From Gyromitra esculenta (lineage: Eukaryota; Ascomycota; Pezizomycetes; Pezizales; Discinaceae), in NCBI GenBank assembly GCA_038503075.1, contig JBCAML010000007.1:992001-1056000 (forward strand): a stretch of DNA of 64,000 nt, written 5' to 3'. The notes beneath the pieces were generated by a model that had not been told where the DNA came from, ran no database searches, and worked only from the letters and a program-made list of their open reading frames with translations. Positions 25,868 through 51,669 of the stretch are shown here, one piece after another (the stretch's first letter is position 1; the number at the start of each line of letters is the position of its first letter). A program made the position numbers and the translations under genes.

Positions 25868-27595
25868 CTAAAATCTGAAGGGTTCAAAATCCATGATGTA
25901 CATTTTCACTCCTTCCCTTATATTTCGTTCTACCGTTTCTCGTACTTGCTCTTCTGTTTCACGATCGGCACAAACAGCAATCGCTATTTTTCCTTTTTGG
26001 CCATCGATTGTGCCTTCTACGAGTGCTGGCACATTCGCTTTATGCCAGGATATTTTTATTGCATCATGTTTTCCGGGATTGTCGTTTCGCTTTCTGGGTG
26101 GTTCACTCTCCGTTATGAACATATGTATGGCCAATACCTTTGTTTATGTTAAACTTGGTTACCCATAGTTGAATTTTCGAATACATACGTGTTTGTCGTC
26201 AGCTTTCATTAATTCGGCCATCCAGCGCGATACCCAATATCGATGATCTTCGTATTACCACAGTTAGTCAAACGTATATTTAATTGGTACAGGGGCTGGT
26301 TACATTCTTTGCTCATTTCCCAAGCAAGTATGATTCTCTGTGTTCTTATCTGCCGATTTCGATGTGCATTTAATAAACTTTTGATGTAAGGCATCTGAGA
26401 CGCGATGCCTATTCCGGTGCAGATCAATAACACCGTGCCGTAGGAACCGAAGTCTTTTGATTCGCCATATGGTCCTTCGATGATCGCCCTCATGTGCTGT
26501 ACAGTCTGTGTTTGCGCGCTCATCGGGTTCAGTATGGCGGACCTATCCTTTATCCATCCATGGCGCTCGATGTGTAGGTCTCGCGAAAAACCCTTTCGAG
26601 GGGCAACAAGGAAGAAAGCCTTCCCAATAGTTTCGTCCCACCAAACCAGTTGGAAAGGATGTGACTGTAATGCCGCTGTTGCGCCGGTTGATGGTACCGA
26701 GATGTACAAGAATTGGCCTGGCCCTAATTCCCAAGAATTTTTCAACCCAACAACTAACTGGAACATGTTTTCATTGTCATCTTCGTACTGCAGAATAGAA
26801 ATACACGCCCCATAGCTCCGATAGATTGTATATCCAATACGAAAACTCAACGTTAATATCCATCCAGAAGTTGTTAGCACAAGATAAATCTTAGGTAGCG
26901 TGTTCCAATGTCCATCATGCATAGCATGGAAATAGAGGCTTGCTAAAATAACGCATGCAGAGACAATATGCAAAAGACGTGCAGCTTCGTATGCCCAGTT
27001 TCGGAAAAATTTGGCCATGAACACGCAGAGAAATACAATCCCTGTACTTGCCTGTTTATATGTGTTACTTGAGTAACCATGAAAGAGAAATATTTGGAAC
27101 ACGCACAATGTATCCAGGGATGCTCTCTGTGTGCTGTGCTAGAGCAATTGCGGAGTGTGTGAGCACATGCCCGCATACCATGCAACCCATAACGACATGC
27201 ACCTGGGCATGTGATATGCCACAGGCATTGGTGATGATATTCGGTCTCCCGGTCATGCCTAGAGGAATTAAGTTGACAAGTGCGAGATATCCGGTTCAAG
27301 TCCGTATGTTTCCGAGGGTGGAATCCCTCTGAATGAACAGTGCGATCAGATTTGCAGCCAGATATCCAGCGCACGCTAAGAGAGACCATCGAGTGCAATT
27401 GGAGTTTACTCTGAGGAAACGAGGAGGTCTCTTTTGTATAAGATGTTTCGAAAAATAAAAGATAGAACAGCGACAAATTTTTAAAAGAGTTCTGACGCCA
27501 ATTGTAAAAAAAATCCAGAGCAGAGCCACCCCTCCTATTGCCAGTGCATAAATTGTGCTTGCGTTGTTCATTGCTGTCGTCCAGGTCATGTACAT
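25868..27595 (-). pseudogene. Ferric reductase (FRE) pseudogene
   Basis: FRE proteins reduce extracellular Fe3+/Cu2+ at the plasma membrane using NADPH, FAD and two haems. Three exons: 27107-27595, 26189-27051 and 25868-26137 (introns 27052-27106 and 26138-26188). Visible: N-terminal spans; a transmembrane block with candidate haem histidines (ISHAQVHVVMGCMVCGHVLTH); a FAD-binding HPFQLVWWD; an NADPH loop with GPYGE and TGIGIA; and the C-terminal FRE tail ending in FEPFRF. Two lesions are seen. An in-frame TGA lies at 27296-27298, within a run that otherwise continues unbroken. An extra GC dinucleotide at about 26225-26228 shifts the frame in exon 2, whose length (863) is not a multiple of three although both its splice sites are phase 0. 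Ferric reductases are recurrent cargo of Starship elements. Confidence 0.8.
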
Positions 27596-27661
27596 ACCAG
27601 AGGCTGCGCTGACATGTATTTAAACTAAGCTAAGCGCTGGTGGGCAGAAGTAAACCATCAC

Positions 27662-28476
27662 ATGAAACACGCCGGCACTTCAGCAATAAAAATACATCCT
27701 TCCAATTTCAGTGTCTCCAAATATATCCCAATGTCAGAGCTCACAGAACATTTACAAAATCCTCGGCGGCAAACTGCTTGGACAGATCAATTCAATGCTG
27801 AGGATATAGACCAAGTCAATTTCAGTGGGTCTAAAGCACAGTACCAGAAATATGTCAACGTCCGACTTGATGGCGATACGGTTTTTGCTCATGATGAAGA
27901 TGGTGATATTGTTGCCATCAAAACCTATGTGGATTGTGATAGAAATATGTTTAGCGTGTTTAATCAACGACCACATCCAAATGTTGTGTTTTGCAGCACA
28001 TTCCGAACGATCTCGATAAACGAAGTAGAAATTACACAGGAACCAATGGATGCAACACTCAACCAAGTCATATCAGCTCCCATGCGATTCTCTGAGGAAC
28101 AGATCGCTTTTGTATGTCAAGAGGCAAGTTGTTCTTGTTTTCTGATGGTGAACATCTCTAATGCAATATTTAGATTCTACGAGGTTTAGTATACTTTCAG
28201 GAGGAGAATGTTGTACACGGAAATCTTAGGCCGGAAAACATCCTTCTCAATTATGGAGGTTCGGTGAAGATTGGAGACCTTGCCTCGTGCCGGCCAGCAG
28301 TGCCCAAAGAGAAGTGTAGTGATGTGCCACTCGTTGGAAATATTTGTCTAGAAATGATGGAACCGGGGATGAGAGGAAAATTACGAGAAAAATGGACACC
28401 AACTATTGTGGACTTCGTAGCTTCGCTAGAGAATGGAAAATCGGCCAGTGATGCACTGAAGGTTTGGTGTCTCTGA
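27662..28476 (+). CDS. Small protein pseudokinase
   Basis: Two exons: 27662-28123 and 28174-28476, 254 residues. The intron 28124-28173 has a GC donor (GAG|GCAAGT) and a CTAAT branch site. Splicing it gives the kinase-like QEILRGLVYFQEENVVHGNL. The fold is a protein kinase: VAIK (likely the ATP-anchoring lysine), HPNVV, then the catalytic loop and magnesium motif. In these the HRD-x4-N loop reads HGNLRPEN and DFG reads GDL, so the catalytic aspartate and the DFG aspartate position are altered and no glycine-rich loop is clear. The C-lobe is short. It is therefore probably catalytically dead and could act as a binding or decoy protein. It could also be a truncated kinase relic. It is divergent from the ferric reductase pseudogene, 66 bases away. 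Confidence 0.65.
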
Positions 28477-28665
28477 TCATGTAAATTTATTGTTTACTAA
28501 CTAGCAGCAATGACAGCATAAGTTTATCAGCCAGGCAGGTGGTCCAACAATTTTGTGGCCAAATATTCGGTTGAGTATGGTGGTGGTGAAAAAGAATTGG
28601 TCTATGGTGAGAAGGAAATAGCGGGATAAATAGGATAGATGTTGTATTTAATATATAAACTAGCT

Positions 28666-29456
28666 ATGCCCCCCGCAACACAGTCTAGCAGAAACCAAAC
28701 CATGAGAAAATCCAACTACAAGAAACGAGATTTAGCTATTTTAATGGAACTTCGTGTAGCGTATGACGACTGGAATGATATACACAACATATTTAACTCT
28801 ATTGTTTCGGTCAAACGGAGTAAAGAATCCCTTCGATGTAGATACTACAAAGAGAAAGAGCAAGAGGTATGTACGGCTCGGGAATTACCCGATAAAATAG
28901 AACACTAACTAGCAAGAATTCTCAGAGATTGAAGCTTCACTCAACGCGCAGCTCACATCCATCATACGGCCTCGCCTATCACGACATAAATTCTGTCACA
29001 TGTGGCGGCATTCGTCCTCAAAATAATATCGATTTCAGTAATCACAACATGTACACGGAGGTCGTGAACGTGAATGAATACAACCCCGCGATAAATATAT
29101 CTCAGCATGTTTGGCCGAATGGAATATCCAACCGAGAATACACCGGTGTTCCAGTGATTTCGGAATCTGCGACACAATGGCCCCTCTATTGTCAGCAAAA
29201 TATCGCTAGTTTCGACGGTGTTCAGTTCGTTGTGGCAAATCCTCCTCACACTCAATACCAGTTTAAGGACAATGTGGACTCCACCGCATATGCCAGTCCA
29301 AATGTTATACCCACCATCGAAGCGTTCGAACCCGATTCCATAAGCAGCTGCAGCAATTCGCAAACGCCAAATGGAGTTGACAACGTCTTCATACCACACA
29401 TGACTCAATACAACTGTTTTTCTAGTGCGATGGTAGAAGATCAAGTGAAGAAATAA
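28666..29456 (+). CDS. Myb/SANT-like small protein, putative DNA-binding
   Basis: Two exons: up to 28866 and 28926-29456 (intron 28867-28925, GTATGT...CTAAC...CTCAG), phase 0. The start at 28666 (MPPATQSS) is preferred to an upstream ATG at 28639. The N-terminal 60 residues are basic and helical: YKKRDLAILMELRVAYDDWN then a second helix and RSKESLRCRYYKEKE, a Myb/SANT-like arrangement seen in fungal accessory genes. The remaining 175 residues are Asn/Gln/Ser-rich and look disordered, like an activation region. Total about 244 residues. The motif LR-x-AY-x2-W-[DN]-D recurs in the zinc-finger gene at 55.6 kb (LRLAYKRWDD). No lesion seen. Confidence 0.55.
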
Positions 29457-29506
29457 ATACTTGAGAGGAGGACATGGCAATGGAAAATAGTTTATATTGA
29501 CATAAT

Positions 29507-31033
29507 TTATACAAGGGATCCTCCAATCGGCCGTTTATGATACATACTCTCATAGCGCAAATAATGTCTTCGAAGCGTGTCAATAGCTTTCTCACGATAC
29601 CCATTCTCAATCCCTGGATTTGCCCCACTCAAGAGTAACTTTTTATACATATCCAAGCTCCTGGAATAGTGTAGAGGCGTAGATCCCGTGTTCGTCTGAG
29701 CCAATACCAAAGACTCATTAATGTTCAAAAGACTTTGAGCTGCCATTCTGTTATCGGCACGAACCGCTTTGTGCAAAGGTGTTTCTCCAAGGTCATTAGC
29801 CGCCCCGACATCGTCATGGAGGAGTAGAACCCTTGGAATTTGACCGGGATTACTCGCCGCCGCTGTGTGAAGAGGTGTATTGCCATCTGAGTTTCGAGCA
29901 TTGATATCGGCACCGCTCTCAAGAAGGATCTTGAGTGCCTTGTCCTGGCCATGTTCTGCTGCAATATGAAGTGGGGTGTTCAGATACGTATCCCCGCATT
30001 CTACACTGACTCCGCGTCCGATCAACAGTTTTATCAGATGGCCATGATTGTACTCTGCGGCCATGTGAATTGAAGAGTAACCCAGCACATCTGCGGCCGC
30101 AATGTCGGCTCCGTATTCGAGAAGAAGCTCCACTGTTTCGCAGCTTCCACCAACAGCCGCCGAATGAAGTGCGGTGTAATCAAGAGGGGGAGAGAAAATG
30201 GCTGCACCTCGATCAAGGAGGAATTTCACTAACTGTGTATGTTTGCATTGTGCCGCGATGTAGAGAGCCGTTCGCTTTGTTTGATCGGTCGCCGAAAGGC
30301 TGCCACCTCGGGCGAGGAAAAAGTCGACGATATTGGTGTGTCCGTGTTGGGCAGCGAGGAGTATAGCGGAATTGTAGTATTCGATCTTGTCGAATACAAT
30401 CTCGCTGCCTATACTGTCTAAGATGAGATCTAGAACATGGCGATGGCCACATCGCACCGCTTCATCGATAGGCGACCGATGAAGGTTGTCGTAAACTGTA
30501 ATCTTGGCACCGCGAGCAAGGAGGATTTCCATTGTATCTCTGTGTCCACCTTTAGCCGCTTCATGTAGAGCCGTCCGTCCGTTGATATCCTGCCTCGAGA
30601 CTTTGCCGTTACAATTAACAAGGATAGTAGCGATTTCGCTGTAGCCATGTTTCGCTGCAATGTGGAGCGCGGTACGTTTGTGTTGGTTCTTTGTCGTGGT
30701 CTTGATCTTCTTGATCACAAGAATTTCAACCAACTCAGCACTGCCACTTGACGTTGCGCTGAATATAGCATCTTCTCGTCGCAGAAGAGACCTCAGAAGG
30801 TCGGCGAATAACGGTTCCCTTTCTAGGAGATATTTGACTCGTCTCTTGAAGTACGTATCTTTCTTCGGGAGGTAGGCGATGCAAAATTGACAGAGCGTAC
30901 GTGTACTTTGTTCGGCAATATGAAGTTTGATTTCGTGTGGAATGGTTGTTGCACTAATTGCAAGACGAGCGATATACCCGTGGAGTGAGGGCAAGGAGAG
31001 GACCATCTCAAGTGTGTCAAGCATGGTGGGCAT
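29507..31033 (-). CDS. Ankyrin-repeat protein (508 residues)
   Basis: A single open exon. The first 90 residues are helical and non-repeat. From about residue 90 to the end there are eleven to twelve ankyrin repeats of about 33 residues. Clear cores include RTALHIAAKHGYSEIATILV, RTALHEAAKGGHRDTMEILL, TALHSAAVGGSCETVELLLE, NTPLHIAAEHGQDKALKILL and NTPLHTAAASN. The final repeats are degenerate. Ankyrin arrays bind other proteins. There is no NACHT or other effector domain in front, so this is a stand-alone repeat protein, possibly the sensor half of a former NLR-like gene. It lies tail to tail with the Myb-like gene (50 bases between stops). No lesion seen. Confidence 0.85.
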   Translation of the reverse strand: MPTMLDTLEMVLSLPSLHGYIARLAISATTIPHEIKLHIAEQSTRTLCQFCIAYLPKKDTYFKRRVKYLLEREPLFADLLRSLLRREDAIFSATSSGSAELVEILVIKKIKTTTKNQHKRTALHIAAKHGYSEIATILVNCNGKVSRQDINGRTALHEAAKGGHRDTMEILLARGAKITVYDNLHRSPIDEAVRCGHRHVLDLILDSIGSEIVFDKIEYYNSAILLAAQHGHTNIVDFFLARGGSLSATDQTKRTALYIAAQCKHTQLVKFLLDRGAAIFSPPLDYTALHSAAVGGSCETVELLLEYGADIAAADVLGYSSIHMAAEYNHGHLIKLLIGRGVSVECGDTYLNTPLHIAAEHGQDKALKILLESGADINARNSDGNTPLHTAAASNPGQIPRVLLLHDDVGAANDLGETPLHKAVRADNRMAAQSLLNINESLVLAQTNTGSTPLHYSRSLDMYKKLLLSGANPGIENGYREKAIDTLRRHYLRYESMYHKRPIGGSLV

Positions 31034-31227
31034 CGTGTGCTTGTTGGTGTTTTATTTTGGGCGATACAGGGAGAGATGGATGCAAGTATATATAGATTTT
31101 AAACGTTGATGAAACACTGTCCCCTAGGTACAGAGAAGATAAAAATATCGCTACATCTGGAATGGCTAATATAAAAAAGACTACAGACCATACTGTTTGC
31201 TCAAGGCATAGATATCACATACACATC

Positions 31228-31566
31228 ATGGCATCACGAATCAAGTTTTCACAGAAAAGATCGAAGCTCCTTCGAAAAGTTCAGAAATTCAGCCTGCGTT
31301 ATCGAGCAGGCGTCACTCTGATTGTGCGGAAAAATGGTAGTTGTCAAATGTTTACGTCAATGGGAAATAGCCTCTCTGGCTCCGAGGAAATGGTAGGTTT
31401 AGCCGGCCATCCTCCTCATGCAAGGCACAAGTTAATCTCAAAAAAGGAAATAATTCCGCCCCCACCACTTATCACGGATCGAAATCTGCCTGCCCGTTGG
31501 GCAATCAGTAATTTACTCGTGCAGTTGTCATCATCTGTTATTGAACCAATCGGGGCTCCCCCTTAG
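31228..31566 (+). CDS. Divergent MADS-box-like small protein
   Basis: From the ATG at 31228 the protein starts with a MADS-like segment: RIKFSQKRSKLLRKVQKF then SLRYRAGVTLIVRKNG. This follows the MADS pattern R-x-K-F-x4-R-x2-L-x-K-x4-S-x3-A-V-x-LIV. An intron of 54 bases (31393-31446, GTAGGT...GTTAATC...AAAAAAG) is likely; because its length is a multiple of three the frame is open with or without it. The C-terminus is Pro-rich (EIIPPPPLITDRN). About 94 residues when spliced; an upstream ATG at 31162 could extend it. A clearer MADS protein lies at 47.8-48.2 kb. The DNA-binding role is inferred from weak similarity. Confidence 0.45.
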   Translation: MASRIKFSQKRSKLLRKVQKFSLRYRAGVTLIVRKNGSCQMFTSMGNSLSGSEEMVGLAGHPPHARHKLISKKEIIPPPPLITDRNLPARWAISNLLVQLSSSVIEPIGAPP

Positions 31567-31670
31567 GACTAAGAGGTGATCGAAGGGTGGATTTTCAGAG
31601 GCGGAATATGTACTATTAGTGTGAATAATACAAAGTTTTTTCTTATAAAGGGCATATCCAATCTCGCCTC

Positions 31671-31886
31671 ATGCACATCACGCATTGCCCTGCCCAGAAC
31701 CTACATACTGCACTTACAAAGTTTATGATGGACGCGACCAGTCATTTTGACAATTCTGAATTTGAGATTGTCGCAAACGAATTTCTGGCTAACGACGAAG
31801 ATATTCAATCAATCGTCAATCAGTGGTATCCGTCTGCTGAGAGAGACAAATTGTTTCACGAAATAGAAAATTTAAAAGCCAAGTGA
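31671..31886 (+). CDS. Small hypothetical protein (71 residues)
   Basis: A short open frame 105 bases after the MADS-like gene. The sequence is acidic and helical after residue 15 (FDNSEFEIVANEFLANDEDI). No domain is recognised. It could be a free small gene or a downstream exon of the MADS-like gene. Composition looks more coding-like than random frames here, but support is weak. Confidence 0.3.
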   Translation: MHITHCPAQNLHTALTKFMMDATSHFDNSEFEIVANEFLANDEDIQSIVNQWYPSAERDKLFHEIENLKAK

Positions 31887-33025
31887 ATCTCCTTTCCATG
31901 TCTCTGGTGGTTGCACGATACTAACAGCTATTCAAGAGTCCAAGCCATGGAAGAGAAAATGCAGTATGTCTCAAATTAAGATTTCCAATATTCATGTGCT
32001 GACCTTATACCGAAGATCGGTGGACAAATTCATCGCAGCACAGATTGTTTGGTCGGCAACTGTCTCACAAAAACTCAATGGAGGAAAACCCGGAAGTTCG
32101 AAATAAGTTAGCTAGTAGGACAGTTTATGTATCACATTTGACTAGCATATATGTATTGAAGATTACCGGCATACGATCTGCGTTGTACATGACACAAGTC
32201 CGTGTGGTCAGCGGGTCCGTGCGGTGATCGCTCGCTTGACCGCGCGGACAAGTAACCCGCACGGATGCATACATGCGCGAGACCGCGCGGGCCAGGAACC
32301 AGCACGGATGCATATATATGAGGTGAAACACCCCGAGTTCAGATGTAAGACCGGTACTTCTTACCGCACAGGAAATCTCCAAGAAGCTTTAGATAACAAT
32401 CTAGACGCTATAACCTGCCCGGTTGCTATCCGCAACACAATACACAGGCGCAAGTCCTAACTGCTTCTTATGAACCGCTAAAAGATAACCGTAGGGTTCA
32501 AAGTAGGGATCGAGCAAAGTTCCGTGAAGAACTTCCAATAGTAAGGTTTTAATAACTAACGCTGAAGGGCCAAGCGCTCTAAGCGAGATAAAAGTAATTC
32601 ACAAGTAAAAGAAAGAAATTGCACGTAAGTAATTTTGCTAGAAACAATTTAATATTGATAAGGCTCATTCTTCGTCGCTAATAATCCGACTCAGAGTTTA
32701 CATCCACTGCGAGAGTATTTATAATGCCTCCTCTCTACTATGTTTGGGTATAGTGTGGTGTAGAGGCGCTAACTACTATGACAACATGAAACCACTTCGC
32801 CTTATCTCCATACCCAATACCCCATTGAGTTCCCTGGTCCTGATCCGCGATTCTCCGAGCAGTATGCATGTCGGTAACACAGGAGTTACGTATTCGTCTT
32901 CATTGCGTTCGTCTCTTCGAGACGATCATTTCGCCTATTTGAATCGTCGTGTAGCATTGCGTTCCCTTATCTTTGTCAGTCTGTAACTCCGCCAGTTTTG
33001 GTCCGATTCGCAATCCGTTTGAACC
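31887..33025. other. Spacer with a GC-rich tandem repeat
   Basis: No supported gene. It contains the 43-base tandem repeat at 32238 and AT-rich unique sequence before repeat R1 copy 2. Confidence 0.35.
32238..32323. repeat. Two 43-base GC-rich tandem repeats
   Basis: Two diverged units start at 32238 and 32281. Each contains GACCGCGCGG and CACGGATGCATA. The block just upstream (GGGTCCGTGCGGT) is an imperfect inverted copy of part of the unit. The stretch is much more GC-rich than its surroundings. Confidence 0.7.
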
Positions 33026-33284
33026 ACAGCGAAGCCAGACACTTCCCCTACATACCCTCCGGGTCCCATTCCGCCGGACGGTTTTGTTTGACGGCCTAGG
33101 GGTTACTTTTGCCCTCCGGGACAGGTCTTTTCTGGTGCTGTCCCCCCTTCTCCAAATACTATACCTACTGGAAGGATTGGAGGCAGGGTAACAGGCTCCA
33201 GTCCCGATCCGGAAGGTGCTAAAGTAGGGTAACTCCAAAGATAGGGTAACTCCAGGGCCAGGAACTCCTTCAAAAGGTACAGGT
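33026..33284 (+). repeat. Dispersed repeat R1, copy 2
   Basis: The second copy of the repeat at 22998-23230, same orientation, ending 26 bases before the DUF3723 start codon. It contains GATAGGGTAACTCCAGGGCC and CTTTTCTGGTGCTGTCC. It may therefore serve as part of the promoter or leader of that gene. Confidence 0.65.
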
Positions 33285-33310
33285 ATAACATCAGATTCCA
33301 CAATTTTGCC

Positions 33311-35627
33311 ATGTCTCTCAACAGAACAAAAAATGACGAATTAGTGGAGCGTATCCTTCGATCAAAGGATACCTGCTACAAGGGCTCCGGATTTCTTCAG
33401 TTCTCCTCTTTCCTACCTCCTGAGCTTTATTCTCCGCGTTCAATCGATTTAAAGAACATTGCACGCCTAAAGAACATATTCAAAGACCAAGGAGTCCGCA
33501 GGAGTCATCCCAGTCATCGTATCCCAATATTGCTCACCAAAGACTCCTTCCTTGAAATTCTACGTGTATCTAATGTCGATGAGAATACGTTGACTGATCA
33601 CTCTACATCTATCTTGCCGGAGTTGGACGCGCCAAAAGCTTCAGTTCGATATTTACATGGATATCACCGTCTCATTGCGGCGAGGGACATTCTCCCGCCA
33701 ATGGAGCAGTGGTGGGGAGTTGATATATATTTAGAAGGTAAGACAAGTGAAAAGCAAGTAGTCTCTCTCTAATCGTCATAGAATTTCTTACCGAGGGACT
33801 TCAATTCGACCTCGAAAATCAATACCAAAACTCGCAGAACATTACAGACGGAGAGATATTTCGACATATCCGCCTATCGAGCAGAGAACGGAGCATCTCC
33901 AAGGAACAGTTTTGGTTAGCACGACTCACTGTTTCAAAGAAGAGAGATATGAAGCAACTCTTACGGCACGCGGAATATCGACAAGCTTTTGATATGCTAT
34001 TGGATATCCCTGGACTCTGGCCTGTTGTTAAATTAGGCGCTTTCCGTAGGCTGTTATCCACAGGATGCAAAGAGGTAAGATTTCAATGCTTTTGAGCCTC
34101 AGATTGAGATTACTCAACTCAATAGGAGATCGTCCGTTATCTTAAATGGGTCCATACGGCATGGGATGAACTATTAGAAGGACAAGAGCTGTATAAAGTT
34201 GACGCTGAGACCATCAGAGAAATAGAACTTCGTGCCCCGGCCTTATCGCATCGGGACAAGGAGTATCTTGACGATAAACAAGATAAAAATGGTGCATGGG
34301 AATTGTTTGCGTTGCTCTCTGAGCGCGACAAACGTGCGGTGCATGAAAAACTTATGAAAGCAAGGGACAGGATACCCAGCCTTGGAACCTTTTTCGAAGA
34401 CCTTAAGTATTTGGAAACACTAGCTTCATGCATGAAGTGTTTGATTGATCCACAAGTCACGAAACAGAGTTCAATATGTTCTTCGTTTGAACACATGTTT
34501 GAAGGGGATGTGACAGATTTTAGCCAATGCTATTGGAAGTTATGGCTATTCGCCATGCAACACTTTTCCCAGTTAGTTGGCGTTACGCCGCGAAAAGACA
34601 ACGGGCAGCCGAAACCAAGCGTACGAGAACCGAATCGGGACTTGCTTGTCCAATTCGCACGTTTGGCGCACCAATTACAATTCCGATCAAATATAATTGA
34701 AAAGGCGATGCATTCGATCCCAGAAACGGTTATGGCGCGGGATTTTTTTCTCAATGCCCAACCAAAAGAATTGTACGATTACGATCAAGCATTTCTCACA
34801 ACCGAAATACGCAAACTCAGTGAAAGCCTTAACAGCTTTTCCAAGCAAAACAAAATTCCACATACTCCTTGCCTGACTTCATCGGAACGCCTTGACTGCG
34901 GAAGAAGGGCCGGTCGCCCATATGAACGCGATCATCAGATTGACACTGATTTCCTAGTGTTAGAAAATATGATCGGCTCATACGAAGACGGCGCGGGGTC
35001 TAATTTATCGACCTTTTTTTGTAAAAGATCGTTTTTCAAGGCCTTTTTTATTGGACCAAAGTCTCTGTTCCGAGAGCGTGTTGTCAGTTTACCTACCCAA
35101 CCACCAGAACCACGTCAAGCATCGGTATCTTCATATGTACCTTTATTTAGAGAGTCGTTGTCGGAATCGCCAGGGCCCTCTAATCGGGCAGCGGATATCC
35201 CATTTTCACTGATATTTCCACCCCCGGCAATTTCCCCACCTCCGCTATCTCCTTCCTCCCGAAAAAGGGGAATTGAGGACGATTTTAGTGGGAAAAAACG
35301 CCGCGTTGGCGTAAGCCCATTGGACAATGTACAAGTAAGGCTCATTCGAAACCCAGAACATAATCTAGCTAATTTCGACAGTGGATTATTGAAGTTTATT
35401 CAGATGATGCGCCCGATACACCCCACCCGGAAAAGCGTGCAACACGTAGTGAAACCGCAACCATGCTTGCTAGCCATATCATGGAATATAGAGCCCAGGT
35501 ATACGATGACGGTCAGTTGATCAGTAACGATGAGCTGAATGATTGGCTTTTGGGATGTATTTTGTCTGATTCTGGTGATGTCAAGATTAAAATTTGTATA
35601 CCACCTGATATGGTTGATTCTTTTTGA
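33311..35627 (+). CDS. DUF3723 protein (724 residues), Starship cargo family
   Basis: Four exons in consistent phase: 33311-33737, 33782-34074, 34126-35334 and 35382-35627 (introns of 44, 51 and 47 bases with CTAAT/CTCAA-type branch sites). The N-terminal 140 residues match the DUF3723 pattern: a segment listing residues around PRSIDLKNIARLKNIFKDQG, then VRYLHGYHRLIAA, a short ParB-like helix-turn motif. A long helical middle follows, then a Pro/Ser-rich stretch with an NLS-like KKRR near residue 635, and a folded C-terminal piece (WIIEVYSDD...LNDWLLGC). DUF3723 genes are of unknown function but recur as Starship accessory genes. No stop or frameshift was found, in contrast to its neighbours. 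Confidence 0.75.
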
Positions 35628-37222: not shown

Positions 37223-37429
37223 CCACGTTCCAACCCTTTTGATGACAAAGACATGACTCATTGTAATAGAAGACTCATAAAAACACAAAGAACGACAACG
37301 AAACCCGACAACCATGTACCCATGTACCTAACCGATCAACATAACATCCGTCCATGAAAGTTACACGTATTAGCCCTTGCTTTGTTTACTCTAACACGGC
37401 CAGCCTACATACAGCTCTTCGCTTGTCAG

Positions 37430-41280: not shown

Positions 41281-41557
41281 TGGTTCTGGCTGTGTTATTG
41301 AGTGAGCGGAAATTCGCTTATATATACACATGTGGCCCACGGGCCGCGGTTATTATCAATTTGGAATACAGTGGTAAGGGAGCCGGAAGTACTACCATTC
41401 GAGGTACCCGAGAAGTTTCTCCGCGAACGACTATCCTGTTTCTGGTATTCCAAGCTGGCTCGCCCCGCAATATGCCGCTATTTCCCTCATTCAAGGGCAG
41501 ACTGGAAGACACTCAGTTTAAACGCCACTACTAGGCCCGATGCCCCGCGAAATCACA

Positions 41558-41915: not shown

Positions 41916-42182
41916 GTTTATATCCCGCACAAATTACCAACCGCAGTTGCATTAATCCACTTAATCAGATAGTGTTTTACATCACAAATTGTACTCCTAT
42001 CCCTCCACGAACAAGCAAACACATGCAATCCAAAAGGCATCTCAAGTATTTATAATGATCCTTCTGTCAACCTAAATTATTCTTTCCTCTCTACCACAGT
42101 AGTATCATCCTCTTCCTGACACTCCTCTTTTGACCACTCCTCTTCCATTTTTTCCCCAAATTGGCTCACCATCGTTTTCAGT

Positions 42183-42929
42183 ATGCCTGCCAGGAACCTA
42201 CCTTTTGCCGGATCTGCGGAAGGTATTAATACTATCAAGTGCGTCCCGCATATCCGCAGTATGGAATTTTACTAACATCCGCCAGGACAAACTACATTCG
42301 CTCTTATCCAATGGACGCGATCACACCGAGTATTGGGGAGATAATGTTTGTTGCTATCCCCTGTAATCTTTATTTTTACTAATGGTCGTCCCTCTAGACT
42401 GTTCCTTATGGACGAATCTTATACAACTGATCTCGACTACTTTCACATCACTTTAACCACACAGCTTCTGAGGGAATTTGTGTCTAAACTGTACGATTGG
42501 CTCGTTCTGTATCGCCTTGCAGGAGCCGTCCCTCCGAATAACAGTCGTGTTTCTTCGATCACCACGTCCCCTATAGGACGGAGATCACAATCGCTGTCTT
42601 CAATCTCAAATGACAGTGTTTCTTCCGATGTAACAGAGGAAATGTTTCCACCACTGTCGTTTGCAGCTGTTGGCGGCTCGCCGAGGTCCTCTCAATCAGA
42701 TGACAATCAGGGTACAACATCCCTGACAGTTATCCCTCTAGACTGTTCCTCGTCACCCTCTGCTGCTGAGGACACCGGAAGTGTATCGACTCTTCAGTCT
42801 TTTTGTACTACTGGCAATTCCCCAACCCCGTCTGCTGAGAGTGCAGAGAGTTTTCATGGATTAAGGATTGGACAAGGGTTAGGTTTCAGTTCGAAGTTGG
42901 TTATAGGATATTGGGTTGTTGTGGTATAA
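42183..42929 (+). CDS. Hypothetical Ser-rich protein (215 residues)
   Basis: Three exons in phase: 42183-42238, 42286-42345 and 42398-42929, with 47- and 52-base introns that contain ACTAAC and ACTAAT branch sites. The first 85 residues look folded (YTTDLDYFHITLTTQLLREF, LYDWLVLYRLAGAVPP). The rest is Ser/Thr-rich and disordered. No domain recognised. The close agreement of splice signals supports a real gene. It ends about 50 bases before inverted arm R. Confidence 0.5.
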
Positions 42930-42982
42930 TGCTATTGTATTTTGGGTATTATCGGTTATTGGGTTTTTGGTTGAGAAAGCGG

Positions 42983-43275
42983 GGTATTTAAGCGATGGAT
43001 TTTTGGTTACCTTTTGTCTTCTTCTTCTCTTCTTTTTCTAAGCAACGTTCTCGTTATACTTCTCCTGTATCAGTTTTAAATATCACTTCGATTCTACCTC
43101 AGAATCCTCGCTGTCGCCGTGAACCATCACCGATACTTCGCCTTGAAGTATACTCCCTGTAGGACCTGTAGAAACTTCGCACTCGTCGAACGAGTTGATA
43201 CCTCGCTTAAGTAGCACTGCTCACCTTCGGGGATACCGAAGGGCTTAACTGAGAAAGTCAACCGTGAGAAGAGTC
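42983..43275 (+). repeat. Inverted arm R of the ~290-base repeat pair
   Basis: Plus-strand partner of 36955-37222: GTATTTAAGCGATGG, a TTCTTCTTCTCTTC leader, CTAAGCAACGT, AAGTAGCACTGC, GGGGATACCGAAGG. The best-preserved parts are the TATA/leader block and the AAGTAGCACTGC to GGGGATACC block. Together the arms enclose about 5.8 kb containing the exporter gene. Confidence 0.7.
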
Positions 43276-43581
43276 CTCTGACACCCCTTTCTTCGGAGAG
43301 AGCCGACACTATACCAGCAGCAGCAGCAGCACCCACCCAGGACACTGAAGGTAACTCGTACACTCCCTCTCTTTACGATTTATTGATGACTTTCTATCGC
43401 ACTCTTATTCATGGGAATTTTGACAAGCCCCTGGAGAAACTTGTTGCTAATTTCTCACAAAGAACCTCCCCTAGGCCAAATAGAGCATATGCGATTCAAT
43501 AAGCGCAAAAGATCATGCATTGAATCTTCCGAGGAGGAAGGACAGGCGTCCAAGTCCAAAAAGGGCAAAGAATGTGCATGA
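43215..43581 (+). CDS. Possible short gene downstream of arm R
   Basis: From CAC at 43215, just after AAGTAG that could be a splice acceptor, one frame is open to 43502. It codes HCSPSGIPKG, a run of five Ala, then SLYDLLMTFYRTLIHGNFDK, which looks like protein. A second frame continues to 43581 with a basic, nuclear-type tail (MRFNKRKRSCIESSEEEGQA). No ATG is present in the first frame, so an upstream exon or a different start is required. The same acceptor-like junction occurs in inverted arm L. Function unknown. Confidence 0.3.
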
Positions 43582-43777
43582 GTTCTAGTTGGATTTGTGG
43601 GGTCACATATGTTGTTCTTAGAATTTTCCCAATCTGACGCGGCTGTTTTCTTGGGATGACTTGATTGTTTCTCCATGTTATTTCCATATCAAGAAAACAT
43701 TGCATTATGCCAAATGCAGCAATTGATTACCGGCAGTTAACACACTTATTGTTTATCAATATATTCTCTTTTATCCA

Positions 43778-43785
43778 TATAAAAA
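43778..43785 (+). promoter_or_regulatory. TATA box of the 604-residue gene
   Basis: TATAAAAA lies 93-100 bases upstream of the ATG at 43878, at a usual distance for a fungal TATA promoter, followed by a pyrimidine-rich stretch. Confidence 0.45.
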
Positions 43786-43877
43786 GGCGTAGCTTTCACC
43801 GCCCAGCAATTAGCTCTCAAATCACTCCCGTACTCTACATTCTTGATTTAAACCATTAAACCATATTCATCGCATAC

Positions 43878-45692
43878 ATGGCTTCTTCCAGTACCGCCGC
43901 CGCCGCTGTCCCAGCAAAGGAAACGAACTCTCTCGTCGCTGCCTATCACAAGAAACCTACAAATGATAGGAAAAAAGCGGTTATGAAGGCCATTCGGCTT
44001 GCTCAGAAACAGGGAACCCCTTTTCCTCCGAAAATCGCCACCCATAGAGCCCATACTGCTTTCAGGATCAACATGGCAAAGAAAGACGACGAAGTCGACA
44101 TTATCAAACAAAAATTGGCGAACAGTGCAACAGCCAGAAGAAAAGCCTCGTTGAAGACTGATCTCAAAGAAGCTCTCGATAAAGCGCAAACATACAGCGA
44201 TGATCGTTTCATAAGCTCCCGACATTTTCCCAAATTCAAGGGCGAGGCAATGGTTCATGTGATTTCCGACGACAACGGTGACGATGGCGACAACGACAAC
44301 GACGACAACAACACGGTTGATCTCGATTCCAAATCCGATGCCGAAATGGCTGATATCGATAAGGACCCTGCAATGTCAAAAGCGATGAAGCTCATAGAAC
44401 GACAGCGAGATACAGTTGCACGTTACGTTCATGACCAGTGGAATTATCTCCCTTCAACAGAATCGAAGATGCATGAAGCTGCGACATTGGCCCATACTTT
44501 GCATCGAGACTATCTTCGCCTAGCTTTCGCCCTGTCCGCGAATCCAACTCCCATTCCTCGAAAGGTAATCGACAAAGATTCCCCAAAATCTTTCATTCAG
44601 AAGTTACAGCCATACCTGGACGCCGCGGAAGAACACATAAAGGCGGACAAAGCACTTGTGGAAGAACCTGCAGGATCACCAACGCTGCCGAATTCAACTG
44701 CTGCGGCCAAAACGGCTAGTGACAAGTTCAACACGATACGAGCAGCTTTCCTCGAGTGGTCTCATGACAACTTGTCTATTTCGGCCAACGACGAGAACAA
44801 TGATACATTTTTTCGATTTATCGACGATGGACTTGGTGAACCTCTTAAGGGCGGCGAGGCTCCGAAGGTGCAGCTAACAGTGAGCCAACTCAACCGTGTG
44901 AAGGAACAGTTCAGCTTAATTCGCCGAACACCCACCCAAGTCGTCGTTACCCCGTTTCTGTCCTCACCGGTTTTAGTACCAACCAGTATCAAAATTGTCG
45001 CTTTTCGGGGAAATCTTCTCGCCCTGATGATCAGTCCTGGATCGTATAAATTGATATCCCTTGGCGATCAGCTCTTCGAAACAAGAGAATCGCTGGAATC
45101 CAATAGCGCTGTTTATAACTCGACAAAAGTTACCAATAGACTTCTCCACCGGATTAAGGAACGTCCGTACGCCTTCAAGACAAAGCTTCTACAAGCTCTG
45201 ATTGGTATCATTGGAGTGGCACATAAGGGGTATCATACGCTTAATAGGCCGAGTGCCAAGAAGCATGGTCGACGAATAGGTGATTGTATGGTGGAAGTCA
45301 GCTGGCGAACACAATTTGCCGAAGAATTATGCGACAAAGAACTCCTGAAGCGCATCGATCTCACCAAAGAGTCATTCAGCACCTTTGAGACCAGATCTGA
45401 TTGGGCCGCGACTAGGGGAGCCCAGGTGGGCGATTGGGAGATTTACTATTTTGCGAAACAACGTGATATTGGCATCATCCCTCCCCGCAGTACTGCTTGG
45501 CATACAAGTGAATCCAGTAGTTCCATCTCACGATCCAAGGCCATACAAGTGGCCTGGAGAGCAGGCCTTTCAGTGGCTGAGCCTGTCAAGAAAAATAGTA
45601 ATAAAAGCGCGATACAGGAAGACCGTCTGATGCATTCTGATTCAGACGATGAGGGCGAGAATGCTGCTGAAGGATTTTCGGATGTTGAGTAG
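43878..45692 (+). CDS. Orphan protein of 604 residues
   Basis: A single uninterrupted exon, the longest single-exon frame in the accessory region. Order: Ala/Ser-rich start; a basic region (HKKPTNDRKKAVMKAIRLAQ) reminiscent of the N-terminus of transposon-type HTH proteins; an acidic Asp/Asn run (residues 130-150); a helical middle; a mixed alpha/beta segment (SIKIVAFRGNLLALMISPGS); a Trp-containing C-terminal part; and an acidic tail (SDSDDEGENAAEGFSDVE). No family was recognised. No intron and no lesion. Its 3' flank carries an 80-base block shared, inverted, with the captain gene's 3' flank. Nuclear location is likely from charge pattern only. Confidence 0.7.
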   Translation: MASSSTAAAAVPAKETNSLVAAYHKKPTNDRKKAVMKAIRLAQKQGTPFPPKIATHRAHTAFRINMAKKDDEVDIIKQKLANSATARRKASLKTDLKEALDKAQTYSDDRFISSRHFPKFKGEAMVHVISDDNGDDGDNDNDDNNTVDLDSKSDAEMADIDKDPAMSKAMKLIERQRDTVARYVHDQWNYLPSTESKMHEAATLAHTLHRDYLRLAFALSANPTPIPRKVIDKDSPKSFIQKLQPYLDAAEEHIKADKALVEEPAGSPTLPNSTAAAKTASDKFNTIRAAFLEWSHDNLSISANDENNDTFFRFIDDGLGEPLKGGEAPKVQLTVSQLNRVKEQFSLIRRTPTQVVVTPFLSSPVLVPTSIKIVAFRGNLLALMISPGSYKLISLGDQLFETRESLESNSAVYNSTKVTNRLLHRIKERPYAFKTKLLQALIGIIGVAHKGYHTLNRPSAKKHGRRIGDCMVEVSWRTQFAEELCDKELLKRIDLTKESFSTFETRSDWAATRGAQVGDWEIYYFAKQRDIGIIPPRSTAWHTSESSSSISRSKAIQVAWRAGLSVAEPVKKNSNKSAIQEDRLMHSDSDDEGENAAEGFSDVE

Positions 45693-45737
45693 GATTTTTT
45701 TTTTTTTTTCATATACACGATTGAAAATGCAATGTTT

Positions 45738-45816
45738 CCCATTTCTTTGGTTTTTTTATGTGTTAGGTTACCGGGCAATATTTTTTCTTTCGTCTTTCTT
45801 GCATATTTCCGGGAAC
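45738..45816 (+). repeat. 3'-flank block shared with the captain gene (copy 1)
   Basis: About 79 bases starting CCCATTTCTTTGG and ending CATATTTCCGGGAACA, 46 bases after the stop of the 604-residue gene. It matches the reverse complement of 49335-49414 at all but a few positions. Confidence 0.9.
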
Positions 45817-45866
45817 ATCCCACAAATGTATATATCAATAGTTATCGAATATGAGCGTGTTGTATC

Positions 45867-46010
45867 AATTCAAACAATTCAAACAATTTAGATAATTCAA
45901 ACAATTCAGACAATTCAAACAATTCAAACAATTCAAACAATTCAGACATTTCAAACAGTTCAAACAATTCAAACAATTCAGACAATTCAAACAATTCAGA
46001 CAATTCAGAG
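45867..46010. repeat. 9-base minisatellite, sixteen units
   Basis: Sixteen consecutive units of AATTCAAAC or AATTCAGAC with occasional substitutions (ATTTCAAAC, AGTTCAAAC, AATTTAGAT). The period is a multiple of three, so the minus strand encodes a (Glu-Leu-Phe)/(Ser-Glu-Leu) run in one frame. I do not think it is translated. Confidence 0.95.
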
Positions 46011-46111
46011 AGATTAATGCGACAGAGACAATTCAAGTATAACAATTCGGTTTCGGGTACAAGAACTTCAGTGAGTAGTTATCACTCTCTCCGGCAATAG
46101 GGTCCCAATTT

Positions 46112-46816
46112 TTAGATGAAAAGATACATCGCAATATGTAACGCAAGAAAAGAGCCAACGCTGGAGCTCTGGACACTGGAGACGCGGGAGACAGAATTTG
46201 GCGAGACGCTCGAAGTGGAAGGAAGAGAATTTGACGAGACGCTCGAAGTGGAAGTAAGAGCAATGGAAGAATTAACTGCCGAGAGAGGCGCATTTTTGCA
46301 AGCCGGAGTATCGCCTGAAGGGATTGGCCAAAAAACTCCACAAGTTTGCGTCATATAAATTGGTGGGCTTAGTTCAGTTGTACTAACGAGTAGCGAAGCA
46401 TTCGACGTATGATTCCAGTTGTGCATCTCGAGCGACGTGGTGTTAAAGGTAGTGTTCCAGCCTTGCAACGGAATTGGCATACTGATCGTGGTGTAGTTGG
46501 TAGTGAGAGATGTCGGTATCGTTGCCGTAGTGCTGTTTGCAGTAAGATTTTTCTCAGACGTGGCGGTCCAGTTATGCGAGAGAGTTGGAGTGGATGCAGG
46601 TGTCATGTATGCAGTGCTCCAGGCATGTGTCGACATGGTCGCATGCAGTGGCTCTGACGTAAGCGATAGGATAGACGTGACCAAAGTCGTGGGTATGGAG
46701 TGGGCAGGGCCATCCGTTCTAATTGACACAGAAATAAAAGCCTCAATGGGTTCGGCCAGCGAAACATTGACTTGAAACGCGTAGCAATAACCAATGAATA
46801 GATAGAATGCAAACAT
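46112..46816 (-). CDS. Secreted, GPI-anchored Ser/Thr-rich glycoprotein (234 residues)
   Basis: A single exon. The N-terminus MFAFYLFIGYCYAF is a signal peptide with cleavage expected near residue 15-20. The middle is Ser/Thr-rich with about ten Asn-x-Ser/Thr sites (NWTATS, NTTFNTTS, NHTSNAS, NSS). A pair of Cys sits near residue 160-173. The C-terminus SSVGSFLALHIAMYLFI is a GPI-attachment signal: small residues, then a hydrophobic end. It should sit on the outer cell surface or be linked to the wall. No enzyme domain. The stop lies about 100 bases right of the 9-base minisatellite. Intact. Confidence 0.7.
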   Translation of the reverse strand: MFAFYLFIGYCYAFQVNVSLAEPIEAFISVSIRTDGPAHSIPTTLVTSILSLTSEPLHATMSTHAWSTAYMTPASTPTLSHNWTATSEKNLTANSTTATIPTSLTTNYTTISMPIPLQGWNTTFNTTSLEMHNWNHTSNASLLVSTTELSPPIYMTQTCGVFWPIPSGDTPACKNAPLSAVNSSIALTSTSSVSSNSLPSTSSVSPNSVSRVSSVQSSSVGSFLALHIAMYLFI

Positions 46817-47078
46817 ATTTAATTATGGTAAAATTGTATTAGTCAGAGGATGAGATGTAGATGTATTGAAGTAGTTGCTTGGAATACATCTCAAAAGTGC
46901 TGCAGATAACGGGTCTTAAATAGTAGTTGGGCCTACAAAGCATCTATTTTTGCATCATACCAATTAAACATTATTTATATACGGCGCCAAATAGTCTGTT
47001 TCAATTGCTAATTCGAAACATTATTACAGGACCAGGGACAAAAATATAACCGTTGCCAGCGGCTCCTAAGGATTTTCC

Positions 47079-47555
47079 TCAGAAAAATCTACAAAACCTA
47101 AAATGATCAGTTGCTATTCTCATTGAAATCATACTGGTGGCAAACTCACTGCATGTTTCTTCCTTTTCATGCTTCGTTACTGACGTCCTGTCCTTATATT
47201 GTTTCTTACACCGAGAACAATGCAATTTAGACCACTCCTTCGCCTCTGCGCTGTGTCCTTCATCTTTCCCTTTCATTCTCATTATATGCGCTCATAAACC
47301 TTTTTCGCTAGTAAGAATACTGTTGCAAATAGGATAAGGAAAACGTAAACCTTTCTCGCTAGTAAGAATACTGTTGCAAACAGGACAAGGAAAACCTGCT
47401 AAACTCACTTCCCGTGGCGATCTAAGGGCATCAAGCTCCGCAAGTAGCCCTTGGGTGACAGAGTCGAGATCATGAGGGAGGAAACGACGTATGATATTTT
47501 CTAGAATATCAAGGCGCTGTGCCGTGCGGTCTGGTGGTGGGGTTGGAGATGACAT
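47079..47555 (-). pseudogene. C2H2 zinc-finger gene with internal duplication and a premature stop
   Basis: The frame from 47555 codes a helical N-terminus (RLDILENIIRRFLP), then the first half of a zinc finger twice in tandem: FPCPVCNSILTSEKGL and RFPYPICNSILTSEKGL, a 51-base duplication. A TGA (47292-47294) follows at once, but the same frame continues with HIM, then KLHCSRCKKQYKDRTSVTKH, a second finger, to 47079. TGA replaces what is probably CGA (Arg) before AH. Without the stop the first finger would be completed by downstream His. So the duplicated, truncated state looks like decay of a two-finger protein. Confidence 0.55.
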
Positions 47556-47796
47556 GTTTGCTGTTGCGAATTTTGTTGTAGTTGCGAGTCTGGGTCTCCG
47601 CCTGGTTTATATGGCCGGGCGGTATATTCCGGCAGGGTAGCACTATCCGTGCAGTGCGCACTGGAGCGACCGCAAGGCTGTCACAACCTCAGGGTCGCAT
47701 CCTTGCCTCATATTACGCAATGTGCTCTTAAAGCTCAATCTAATTATATTTTCTAATGAAAATGAAAAAAATGACAACAATACACGTGCTTAATAT

Positions 47797-48217
47797 CTAT
47801 CGATCCTTCAAACAAAGCAGTTTTGGAGGAGACATCAAGGTAAATTCGCTCTTTTGAGCAATTGATTTCGGTCCTTCATCGGTTTCAGTGTCATTGTCGT
47901 TGGCATATGTGATCTTTGGTAACGGATATGTCTCATTCTACGTTATTGTTAGCACATGTCAAGTGGAACGGTTATGGCTGATTCACAATTTCTTGGAGAC
48001 TCGGTGGCCAAAAGCGCTTTGTTGACAGGTACACTTCAAATCGTTTGGTTTTGCCATCTTGTATGACTAAGCACACCTTCGAGCCGCAAAGTTGGCTCAT
48101 TTCGTGAGCTTTCTTTACAAGGTTGTCTTTTCGGCGTATGTACTGGCGTCTTACGGCTTTCGCTTTCATTCTTCTTGTCTCGATAACCTTTTTAAGTTTG
48201 GTTTCAGCGGTTGACAT
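47797..48217 (-). CDS. Small MADS-box protein
   Basis: Two exons, 47987-48217 and 47797-47937 (intron 47938-47986, GTGAAT...CTAAC...GTAG), phase 0, 123 residues. The ATG at 48217 (MSTAETKLKK) is chosen; the frame upstream has no ATG. The MADS domain occupies residues 12-70: RRQYIRRKDNLVKKAHEMSQ, LCGSKVCLVIQDG, then a beta strand (KRFEVYLST). This is the SRF-type DNA-binding and dimerisation module. The C-terminus is acidic and short, with no K-box. It is much smaller than housekeeping fungal MADS factors (Mcm1, Rlm1), so it is an accessory regulator. Intact. Confidence 0.7.
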
Positions 48218-48256
48218 TTTCGCAACTGGATTTTGAGTTGTATAAGGGAAATCCAA

Positions 48257-49334
48257 GGGTTATTAAGGACACGGGAGTTGCTCTTCGATTACGTTAGACC
48301 CAAAAGTTTTCGTGCCAGACACACGTTTCCACCACTATGTTTTCAACCTATGCATGTGTTTAATTGAGGTTGTCCACATGATCGTGAAGAATCACTGTAT
48401 TGCTAAATATGGTTAGCTGTTATACTTGCCTAGAAAAGAAAGAAATTTCATGCACGTTTGCACGACCGCATTGTGTTCCTGAGACGCCTCCACCCCCTCA
48501 CCCGGACAGCTAACTAAAATCGGAAAATTTCTAGCGTTTTGACCGGCTTCTGTCCTGTTCAAGCAAGAAATTCGCACTAAATACTAACCAATGATCATGC
48601 GCCCGGCTGTATGGGTGACGGGTTGACTGTGAAGGCGCCTATGCACATAGCCACGACAGCAGATTTAAATTGTGAGGAGGCACTTTCAATTCCTAGGACA
48701 ACTAATGCAAGTTTACACTACAATTAACAGGGTCCCTGAAACATCCTACTGTGCTCGATCAGCATATGCAAGGGCGATCTCAATAATAGCAAGATTAGCG
48801 TTATCAGCGTTATGTCTCATGGTGTAAAAATCGATACGCCGCAAGCTACTGAATTTGCCTGACTCGAAAAAGAATTTGAAAATAATAATAGATTCCACGT
48901 GCTTGTGTAACTAATGATCTCTTGATTCACTACGTGCATAATCTGTTAAGTCCGGTGTCGATTTTTCAGGGTATTTCGGTCTGCAACCAAAGTCTCGTCG
49001 TATGTAAGGAATTATCTCTATAAATTTAATCACAAGGCATGAGAAATTTATGCACCATCTAATGCTTTTACCCACCAAGCAATAGTCAGTTTCATTTTCG
49101 TGAGTATACATAAAGTTAGTACTATTACTATGATTTTGAGTCAGATAATAATTTAATTCATACACTGCTGTCGAAATACCGAGCTTAGTGAAACAGATGC
49201 GTGTTTTCATAATTCCCAATATATTGCTTATATTGCCACATTAGGCGAACGACGTACTCTTTCCAACTACATTGATAAAAATTTACTACAATAAACAGGT
49301 TAAATAGGAATAGTAAAAGAAAAAAACCTATAAT
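48257..49334. other. Spacer, no supported gene
   Basis: Short frames occur (for example 48911-49219 on the minus strand) but show no domain, good start context or splicing partner. Nothing else recognised. Confidence 0.4.
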
Positions 49335-49414
49335 TGTTCCCGGAAATATGCAAGAAAGACGGAAGAAAAAATATTGCGCAGTAACCTAACACATTAAAAA
49401 ACCAAAGAAATGGG
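49335..49414 (-). repeat. 3'-flank block shared with the 604-residue gene (copy 2)
   Basis: Read on the minus strand it starts CCCATTTCTTTGG, 39 bases after the captain stop codon, and ends CATATTTCCGGGAACA. Inverted copy of 45738-45816 with few differences. Confidence 0.9.
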
Positions 49415-49452
49415 AGAAACGGAGACGAAATTTTGAACGCAGAAATACTACT

Positions 49453-51669
49453 CTACAGATTGATGCCATGCACAGTTGCCAAATGATTTTTAAGATGATC
49501 CCCATTATTCAACCCGGATGTACATTCCTGAAACGGGCACTCCACCGGCCCAATTGAGGATACAACAGGATGCCTTCTCGAGATATGTTTCTTGAGGGTG
49601 TCAATTCGATGATATGAATGAAATCGATCTGTGAGTCGCAAATTTTCATACGTCAAACAAAACGGGCACTGGTTATCTTTGCTGTCTCCCGTTACCCTCT
49701 TGGTGATTAGCGGAGGCTTTTGCTGGGAGAGACTCGCCAGCGCTCGAACAGCGTCAGCCCATGCCACAGAATCCTTCGAACAGTTGTGGAATGAAGCGAT
49801 TAGAGATCTCAGCGGACAATCAAAGTCAGGTACTGGGTACGAGAATATAGAAGGAGCCTCGCCCCCTAGTTGCTGTTTGATTTCTTCATGGTCCACCTGT
49901 TCAAACCATTCGCTTCTCAGCTCTTCCAAGCCACTCCGATTGAGCCGACGTTTGCAAGCATTAAGCTTATTTCTGGCAGCAGTATATTCGTCATGCAGTG
50001 TAGAGTTGTCCGCCTTGGCTGCAATAATCGTAGGATATATCCCTTTTATTACGTCCCATAGGCGATTTTTTTCCACTCGCAGATTTGCATACTCTGGGTT
50101 ATTCTCCAGCTGGGTATCGCTTAGACTAATTTTGTCAGGTGCTCGAGGATCGCGTTTGGCACTCATCAATCCAATATTCTTCACGAGATCGCGGCGGTCG
50201 ATAATCCCAAGATACGCGCTTTGAGTGTCAATCTTTACGGTCTGGCTTAGATAATGGCGACGAAAAACATCGGCTCTGGCATGGCCCATTATCTGATTTC
50301 TCTGGACGTCTGTGACATCAGGGTCTGAAAAAGTCAGTTGCATACTCTCGAGGCTTGATTTGCGCAACTTACTATCAATCGCATTCGCAGCACCACGACG
50401 CAGTATATAGCTGGTCAATACTTGCGGATATCCGGAAAGAACACCAAACCGTTTCAGAAAATAATTGAAATCTGAATATCCTAGAGGTGTGCTGGAGCAT
50501 ATATCGTTCCCCATTTGGCGACGAAATATCGGTGTCTCACGGATATCCGGCCTCCATTGTATTGATAAACATTCCTTAAAATCTGGAATTTTAAGGTTAT
50601 AGATGTCTTCAACTCGACGTATACCACCCTCCTTAAACGCGCTGTCCGCGAATGCAAGACCTAACAGATTCATGATTGGACAGAATATTGGATTATCACG
50701 TCGCTCATAAAGAATATATGTTACTCTATCGAATACGTGTCAGTTTATAGAATATGTTCCCTCATAAGAACTACCTTCACTTACGGTTCATGCTTATTCC
50801 GTTTCCCTTTGAGAAACGTAGTAGTCACTTCTAGAACAAGAATCGTTCCACCTTCAACAGGATCTCGTAATAGAGATAAATTCATATCCTTCAGCAGTCA
50901 GATTAAGTATAAATTGTCTTCGTTTCAGATAAACGCATACCTTATACTTTAACACTTGTCCACGGCCTTTGTAACAATTGGCTTCAATGATCGCTCCAGG
51001 GCGAGAAGATGTATAAGCAAAGAGTTGCATGAGAAAGGCCATCTGTATTCGATATCGCCCATGGCCAGTTGTGTCATTATCCTGACGCCAGTGATAATGC
51101 AAAAGATTAAACAGGTCATTAACGGAGCATGTGGCCTTGTCTTTCATCTCCATGACGAGATCGAATTACCTGGTGAGATTGTTTTCGATATACTGTCAGA
51201 TTATTAGCAACGCACTTTTGAATCGCGTGATTTCAGCTTTACCGTATTGAGAGTATTGTTGATGCTCTTTTTGAGCCGATCACCAGTGTCGAGGGAATAA
51301 ACCATCTGGAAAGTTTTGTAGAACCCAAAAACTGTTGAGCGATACACCCGTTTCCCTAGTTTGATGAATCAAGAGTTTTTGAGTCGATAGTAGAGATATA
51401 ACTGGATCTCGGTGGCACCAACGCTTCTGAGCGCTTCTTCTGCAGTACGGGGATGGCGCTTCTGTAGGACGTCGTTATTAAATCTGCATGAATACAAGTG
51501 TTAGTATTTCGAAATCCAATTTCACGTAGGGAGATTTGAACCTTTTCCACCAGTTGCGAAAATCTTGAACTCCTTTCTCAGTGGAAGGTGCGAGAGACAC
51601 TCCGTGTACCTTCGTTGAATCGCTCTCCAATTGCTGCCATAAATCTTCGTACCCGCATGTATCTTCCAT
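49453..51669 (-). pseudogene. Starship captain: DUF3435 tyrosine recombinase, two in-frame stops
   Basis: Captains excise and insert Starship elements. Five exons in consistent phase: 51542-51669, 51243-51483, 50941-51192, 50785-50888 and 49453-50725; 665 codons. Recognisable parts: an N-terminal WQQLESDSTK/WWKRFNNDVL region, GFYKTFQMVYSLDTGDRL, then the catalytic core with the first Arg in YTSSRPGAIIE, the second in YILRRGAANAID, GHA, and the probable nucleophile Tyr in FRRHYLSQT. Two C2H2 fingers (CPFC...H, CPFQEC...H) end the protein, as is usual in DUF3435. Lesions: TGA at 51369-51371 and TAA at 51166-51168, both inside otherwise unbroken family sequence upstream of the core. The catalytic exons are intact. 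A first exon upstream of 51669 may be missing. It transcribes leftward, toward the cargo, as captains do. Confidence 0.85.

Follow-up and report, generated by a model that had tools for sequence, protein, structure and literature searches.

A probable Starship transposon with matching ends, present in two copies in an apparently Pezizomycete genome

Starships are giant cargo-carrying transposons that move by a tyrosine recombinase. The available parts of the published accounts give as their features a DUF3435 gene in first position (the captain), direct repeats, sometimes inverted repeats, and empty sites (PMC12257634, PMC12506042, PMC12134995). Their accessory genes include FRE (ferric reductase), DUF3723, PLP and NLR (PMC12257634, PMC12506042), and their published size range begins at 15 kb (PMC12134995). 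Cryptons are likewise fungal tyrosine-recombinase transposons, but the same source, as far as it was available, describes the recombinases of the two groups as very distantly related and a sizeable cargo as a feature of Starships (PMC12134995). Here, we analysed a window of 64,000 nucleotides (C7:992001-1056000, from a genome of 47.1 Mb in 23 contigs). We are highly confident that the unit at window positions 23407..52083, on the reverse strand and with its 5' (captain) end on the right, is a Starship.

The locus shows the features published for these elements: a DUF3435 captain that comes first and reads inward, the expected active-site pattern, direct repeats, and a cargo with DUF3723 and FRE genes. 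A second copy lies on contig C9 (1388280-1443815), with the same order of blocks and unrelated flanks. The homology between the copies begins exactly at the 5' direct repeat TACTCT (52078..52083, reverse strand); the sequence TACTCTGCCTAACG opens both copies, and what precedes it is unrelated. At the opposite edge, CCTCACAATACTCTAC is common to both copies and includes the 3' direct repeat TACTCT (23407..23412, reverse strand). In C9 the repeats are at 1388280 and 1443805, giving a copy of 55,531 bp versus 28,677 bp in the window. A preliminary description, made from the letters of the window, had placed the element at 25,868-51,669 and suggested a search for short direct repeats just outside these limits. 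Such repeats are indeed there, but the unit that they delimit extends from 23,407 to 52,083. Two small repeats of large families lie close outside it. One (52092-52375, with inverted ends and a TA duplication, by eye) is 8 bases beyond the 5' end, and the other (23221-23393) just beyond the 3' end.

One could argue that the true 3' edge lies elsewhere than at 23.4 kb and that both copies are truncated forms of a longer Starship. The shared sequence does extend two bases (AC) beyond the 3' repeat (TACTCTAC) before the flanks diverge. The region adjoining this repeat is also rearranged: the stretch 23563-24093 is inverted and partly duplicated in C9, beside a subterminal inverted repeat (23563..24170, with arms at 23563-23704 and 24035-24170 that are 80% alike). 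Yet in each copy the 3' repeat is an exact match of the 5' edge, with unrelated flanks beyond it, which makes a longer element improbable.

Read from right to left, the blocks shared with C9 are 52083-47144 (98.5% identical), 47151-45737 (89.2%, repeat-rich), 45821-44746 (98.8%), 44750-43270 (98.3%) and 42851-41383 (98.1%) and, on the far side, 26349-24035 (94.9%) and 23736-23402 (98.2%). In C9 these blocks are separated by long terminal repeat (LTR) retrotransposons. By the initial comparison of the two contigs, the element was 10.7 kb long, with one end at 41,383. We rejected this delimitation because, when 50 kb more of C9 were included rightward, the homology resumed at 26,349; the edge at 41,383 is therefore the border of a deletion in C9 filled by a nest of retrotransposons.

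Two copies between unrelated flanks are indirect evidence, drawn from sequence comparison, that the element moved within this genome. A segmental duplication that happened to include a DUF3435 gene, without transposition, would suit the absence of a third copy among the scored candidates (39 of 1323 and 40 of 53 were scored) and the rearrangement of the C9 copy near its 3' end. But the 5' homology breaks off precisely at a 6-bp repeat with a second copy at the opposite edge, a coincidence met by 539 of 200,000 random position pairs (0.27%). Moreover, the captain starts 414 bp inside one edge and published accessory genes lie within, and we judge such a duplication slightly less probable still than a truncated longer element. 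Least probable of all, and very unlikely, is a small tyrosine-recombinase transposon, of Crypton type or otherwise, adjoining unrelated host genes, the cargo being host DNA: the small size and the first 10.7-kb stretch would agree with it, but the shared ends bracket 28.7 kb, C9 retains the tail of the ferric reductase at the far side, and the Pfam search found no family other than DUF3435 in the captain, which is accompanied by cargo (Cryptons were compared by description).

The captain of this Starship (49456..51669, reverse strand) has several introns and a C2H2-type tail. Its match to the Pfam profile of DUF3435, which the preliminary description had anticipated, scored 195.3 bits for a cut-off of 25.8. 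Its coding exons contain two premature stops in the window, at around 51.37 and 51.17 kb. The C9 captain lacks stops at those points, and a serine replaces a glycine just after the catalytic arginine pair. The genome-wide search for DUF3435 returned nine matches: three on C7, all to the window captain and one of them below the cut-off, two on C9, and four on C23, which correspond to two loci. All eight captain candidates were scored, and the captain on C9 is the one other near-identical one in the genome. The C23 loci (L026-L027 at around 97.1-108.6 kb and L028 at 199.5-201.3 kb) are diverged, being 25-30% identical to the captain homologue P0001. The only other DUF3723 locus found adjoins one of them and is split among pieces of retrotransposons. 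They are probably older Starships.

The pattern R-x-x-A, K, Y-x-x-R, Y is present in captain homologues and in the captain's own exons, where the frames of the window read SRPGA, LKGKR, YILR and HY. The same set has been proposed for the recombinase of Sanctuary; two of its positions are occupied by E and H in Cre (PMC12506042). Counted by hand, the spacing between the two tyrosines is 36 in P0001, versus 34 in Sanctuary and 35 in HhpA. The predicted structure of P0001 had a mean predicted local distance difference test score (pLDDT) of 75 and was weak over residues 329-394. When it was compared with the PDB, eight of the 67 matches had E<=0.001, and all eight were Cre. The model of this homologue is thus Cre-like, as in the Starship superfamily.

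The element resembles known Starships (Sanctuary, Hephaestus) in its inward first-gene captain, its FRE and DUF3723 genes and the active-site pattern, and Sanctuary also in having a direct repeat of 6 bp. It differs in lying near the small end of the size range, in its CpG-type decay, in its apparent Pezizomycete host, and in the lack of terminal inverted repeats: the best candidates did not exceed those of shuffled sequences, of which 97/300 and 207/300 were equally good. TACTCT is distinct from the Starship repeats printed in the parts of the sources available (TTTAC, TTTACT, ATTAC, CCCTA, ATWHCT), although it has TACT in common with TTTACT.

Several of these observations weigh against the identification as a Starship. 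The case for mobility comes from one genome. The length of 28.7 kb is small, if inside the published range. The missing terminal inverted repeats count in the same direction; we did not treat them as defining, because one source has them present "sometimes" (PMC12134995) and another describes them as frequent. The match of the captain to the active site of Starship recombinases holds at the level of sequence motifs rather than of superposed structures. The captain model P0002 (mean pLDDT 66) gave no match at E<=0.001 among 442 in the PDB, the best being XerA at 0.18, and part of the catalytic region is poorly modelled in both it and P0001.

Most probably the captain, as the first 5' gene, excises or otherwise moves the element. 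Insertion at a site containing TACTCT would leave this motif at both ends, and whatever lies from the captain to the 3' end would be carried along as cargo. The mover would presumably be this very captain, acting by cut-and-paste chemistry.

The captain's closest named relatives are from Pezizomycetes. The protein search gave 31 matches, including six named Pezizomycetes followed by lichens, Geoglossum and five Sordariomycetes; the best match was from Trichophaea (60%). Choiromyces, Morchella and Pyronema are also Pezizomycetes. In a tree of 16 sequences (15 of the 31 matches and the window captain), the Pezizomycete proteins and one metagenomic sequence form a clade with the window captain (100/99). 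The DUF3435 proteins of Trichophaea, Choiromyces, Morchella and Pyronema, known here from protein sequence alone, are 46-60% identical to the captain. The captain by itself is no proof of the host, because Starships can move between species. Outside the element, the left flank encodes a Na+/cation P-type ATPase (6444-10717) and a Fig1-type gene (15110-16411). The latter had 14 protein matches, of which one carries a species name, that of the Pezizomycete Maublancomyces gigas (62% over 58%). The host thus appears to belong to Pezizomycotina, like those of other Starships. Nemania bipapillata (61%) was the only species named among the listed matches of the ATPase (the best 120 of 6015); almost all the others carried no species name, and this gene was therefore uninformative about the host. 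Matches to both genes come from relatives' contigs of the same two lengths, 10,876 and 39,858 bases, which hints at conserved synteny. Together, the flanking host gene and the nearest named relatives of the captain point to a Pezizomycete host.

The two copies have diverged in a way that argues against repeat-induced point mutation (RIP). We aligned seven chosen blocks, with indels and the repeat-rich sequence at 45737-45821 and 23737-24199 set aside, and found differences at 208 of the 12,539 positions (162 transitions and 46 transversions). Among the 139 C/T transitions with readable context, 73 were at CpG (53%, for 22% of C sites; binomial p 1.3e-15) and 24 at CpA (17%, for 31% of C sites; binomial p 3e-4). 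Changes at CpA are the signature of RIP. With CpA under-represented and CpG in excess, RIP was ruled out as the source of the differences. The excess at CpG suggests deamination of methylated CpG; methylation favours CpG in the truffle Tuber melanosporum (PMC4165359, in the part available). Both copies now look decayed: the window captain has its two stops, while C9 shows the replaced glycine in its captain, insertions of retrotransposons and a loss of cargo.

This loss concerns 15 kb (26350..41382). Within the window-only cargo, outside its two LTRs and a minisatellite, the three pieces that we searched were single-copy in the genome. The ferric reductase frame is continuous across the breakpoint in the window, whereas C9 resumes inside the gene and keeps its tail. 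Since the gene crosses the C9 breakpoint, C9 lost the cargo rather than the window gaining it. A nest of retrotransposons (C9 1412774-1434382) sits where the cargo is missing, and it is flanked by TCCGG and TAAGA, i.e., without a matching target-site duplication. Duplications of 5 bp do flank three solo LTRs of the window and two C9 retrotransposons. The loss probably came about by recombination between two LTR elements. The solo LTRs are at 42852..43269 (target-site duplication ACTCT; absent from C9), 36948..37361 (GTTAC) and 32344..33290 (947 bp; TCAGA). The first two belong to a group of retrotransposons with 5-bp target-site duplications whose LTRs begin with TCTCA or TTTCA and end with TGAAA or TGAGA, not TG...CA; other members are at C9 1403886-1409828 and 1437360-1443391. 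The retrotransposon at C9 1426170-1434270 has two 949-bp LTRs that are 100% identical, and its insertion is therefore very recent.

We searched for cargo genes by matching Pfam profiles to the proteins of open reading frames (ORFs) and to six-frame translations of 23301-38299 and 38001-52300. Beyond the captain comes a MADS-box (SRF-TF) segment (48056..48142, reverse strand; 27.8 bits, cut-off 26). It is followed by a small, stop-interrupted protein that looks C2H2-like by eye, holds a 51-bp tandem repeat and has no Pfam match (47082..47606, reverse). These two are what remains of the many small DNA-binding proteins claimed in the preliminary description. Its GPI (glycosylphosphatidylinositol) glycoprotein corresponds to an ORF of 236 aa (46115..46822, reverse), rich in Ser/Thr/Asn and with hydrophobic ends, of which 33 bases are absent from C9. 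It is glycoprotein-like by eye, as is any GPI assignment, and has no Pfam match. An orphan ORF of 610 aa (43860..45689, forward) has one stop in C9, and a coding signal was not found in the codon differences between the copies (7 synonymous, 15 non-synonymous). A second orphan ORF, of 194 aa (42345..42926, forward), extends into a solo LTR, and another ORF, of 161 aa (40867..41349, reverse), resembles a membrane protein by eye.

Pfam confirmed four genes of the earlier account. They encode a DHA2/TRI12-like exporter of the major facilitator superfamily (38827..39936, forward; MFS_1 93.4 bits, TRI12 weaker), a DUF3723 protein matched exon by exon (33497..35049, forward; 206.7 bits, cut-off 22), an ankyrin-repeat protein with an ORF of 514 aa (29507..31051, reverse; Ank_2 215.6 bits) and a ferric reductase-like protein (25868..27629, reverse, the left end being that of the earlier account). 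The ferric reductase, whose gene crosses base 26,349, matched FAD_binding_8 (36.4 bits, cut-off 22) and, just below the cut-off, NAD_binding_6 (20.6 versus 22.2 bits); none of the 13 matches listed in a genome-wide search with NAD_binding_6 was at this gene. DUF3723 is found on only two contigs, and both carry captains. Active kinases have HRD at a position where a fragment in the cargo (28156..28314, forward) has HGN, in the motif HGNLRPEN. The fragment matched the kinase profile below the cut-off (22.8 versus 31.7 bits), and for these two reasons the label of pseudokinase is fair. PLP and NLR had no Pfam match in the six-frame scan of the element, so that two of the four published accessory genes are present. 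The cargo also contains a minisatellite (36113-36508) with five copies of a 79-bp unit.

The preliminary description was thus right in seeing a Starship, given the inward first-gene captain, the direct repeats, the two dispersed copies, and the DUF3723 and ferric reductase genes. It had called the locus a remnant, which suits a captain with two premature stops but not an element in which both ends are preserved, along with more of the cargo than in C9. It had also proposed an undescribed system, whereas the element belongs to a described superfamily. The system is known and the element is new; the lineage of its captain is probably new as well. We found no description of a Starship from Pezizomycetes among the open-access papers listed by our searches, one of which listed 20 of 668. 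In the part of PMC12134995 that was available, Starship elements are reported in six classes, Orbiliomycetes are discussed, and Pezizomycetes appear only in the title of a reference. A fuller account, which we hold tentatively as falling a little short of probable, is that of a boundary-resolved Starship with an undescribed captain family peculiar to, and native in, the early-diverging class Pezizomycetes, decaying by changes at methylated CpG rather than by RIP and trimmed of cargo by retrotransposon recombination. Should the host prove to be a Pezizomycete, the element would help to show the depth of Starships in Pezizomycotina, and its two copies would provide a base-resolved pair to study target choice, cargo loss, and decay under changes of CpG type instead of RIP type. 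Searches for related elements among morels, truffles and cup fungi could start from its 5' and 3' ends.

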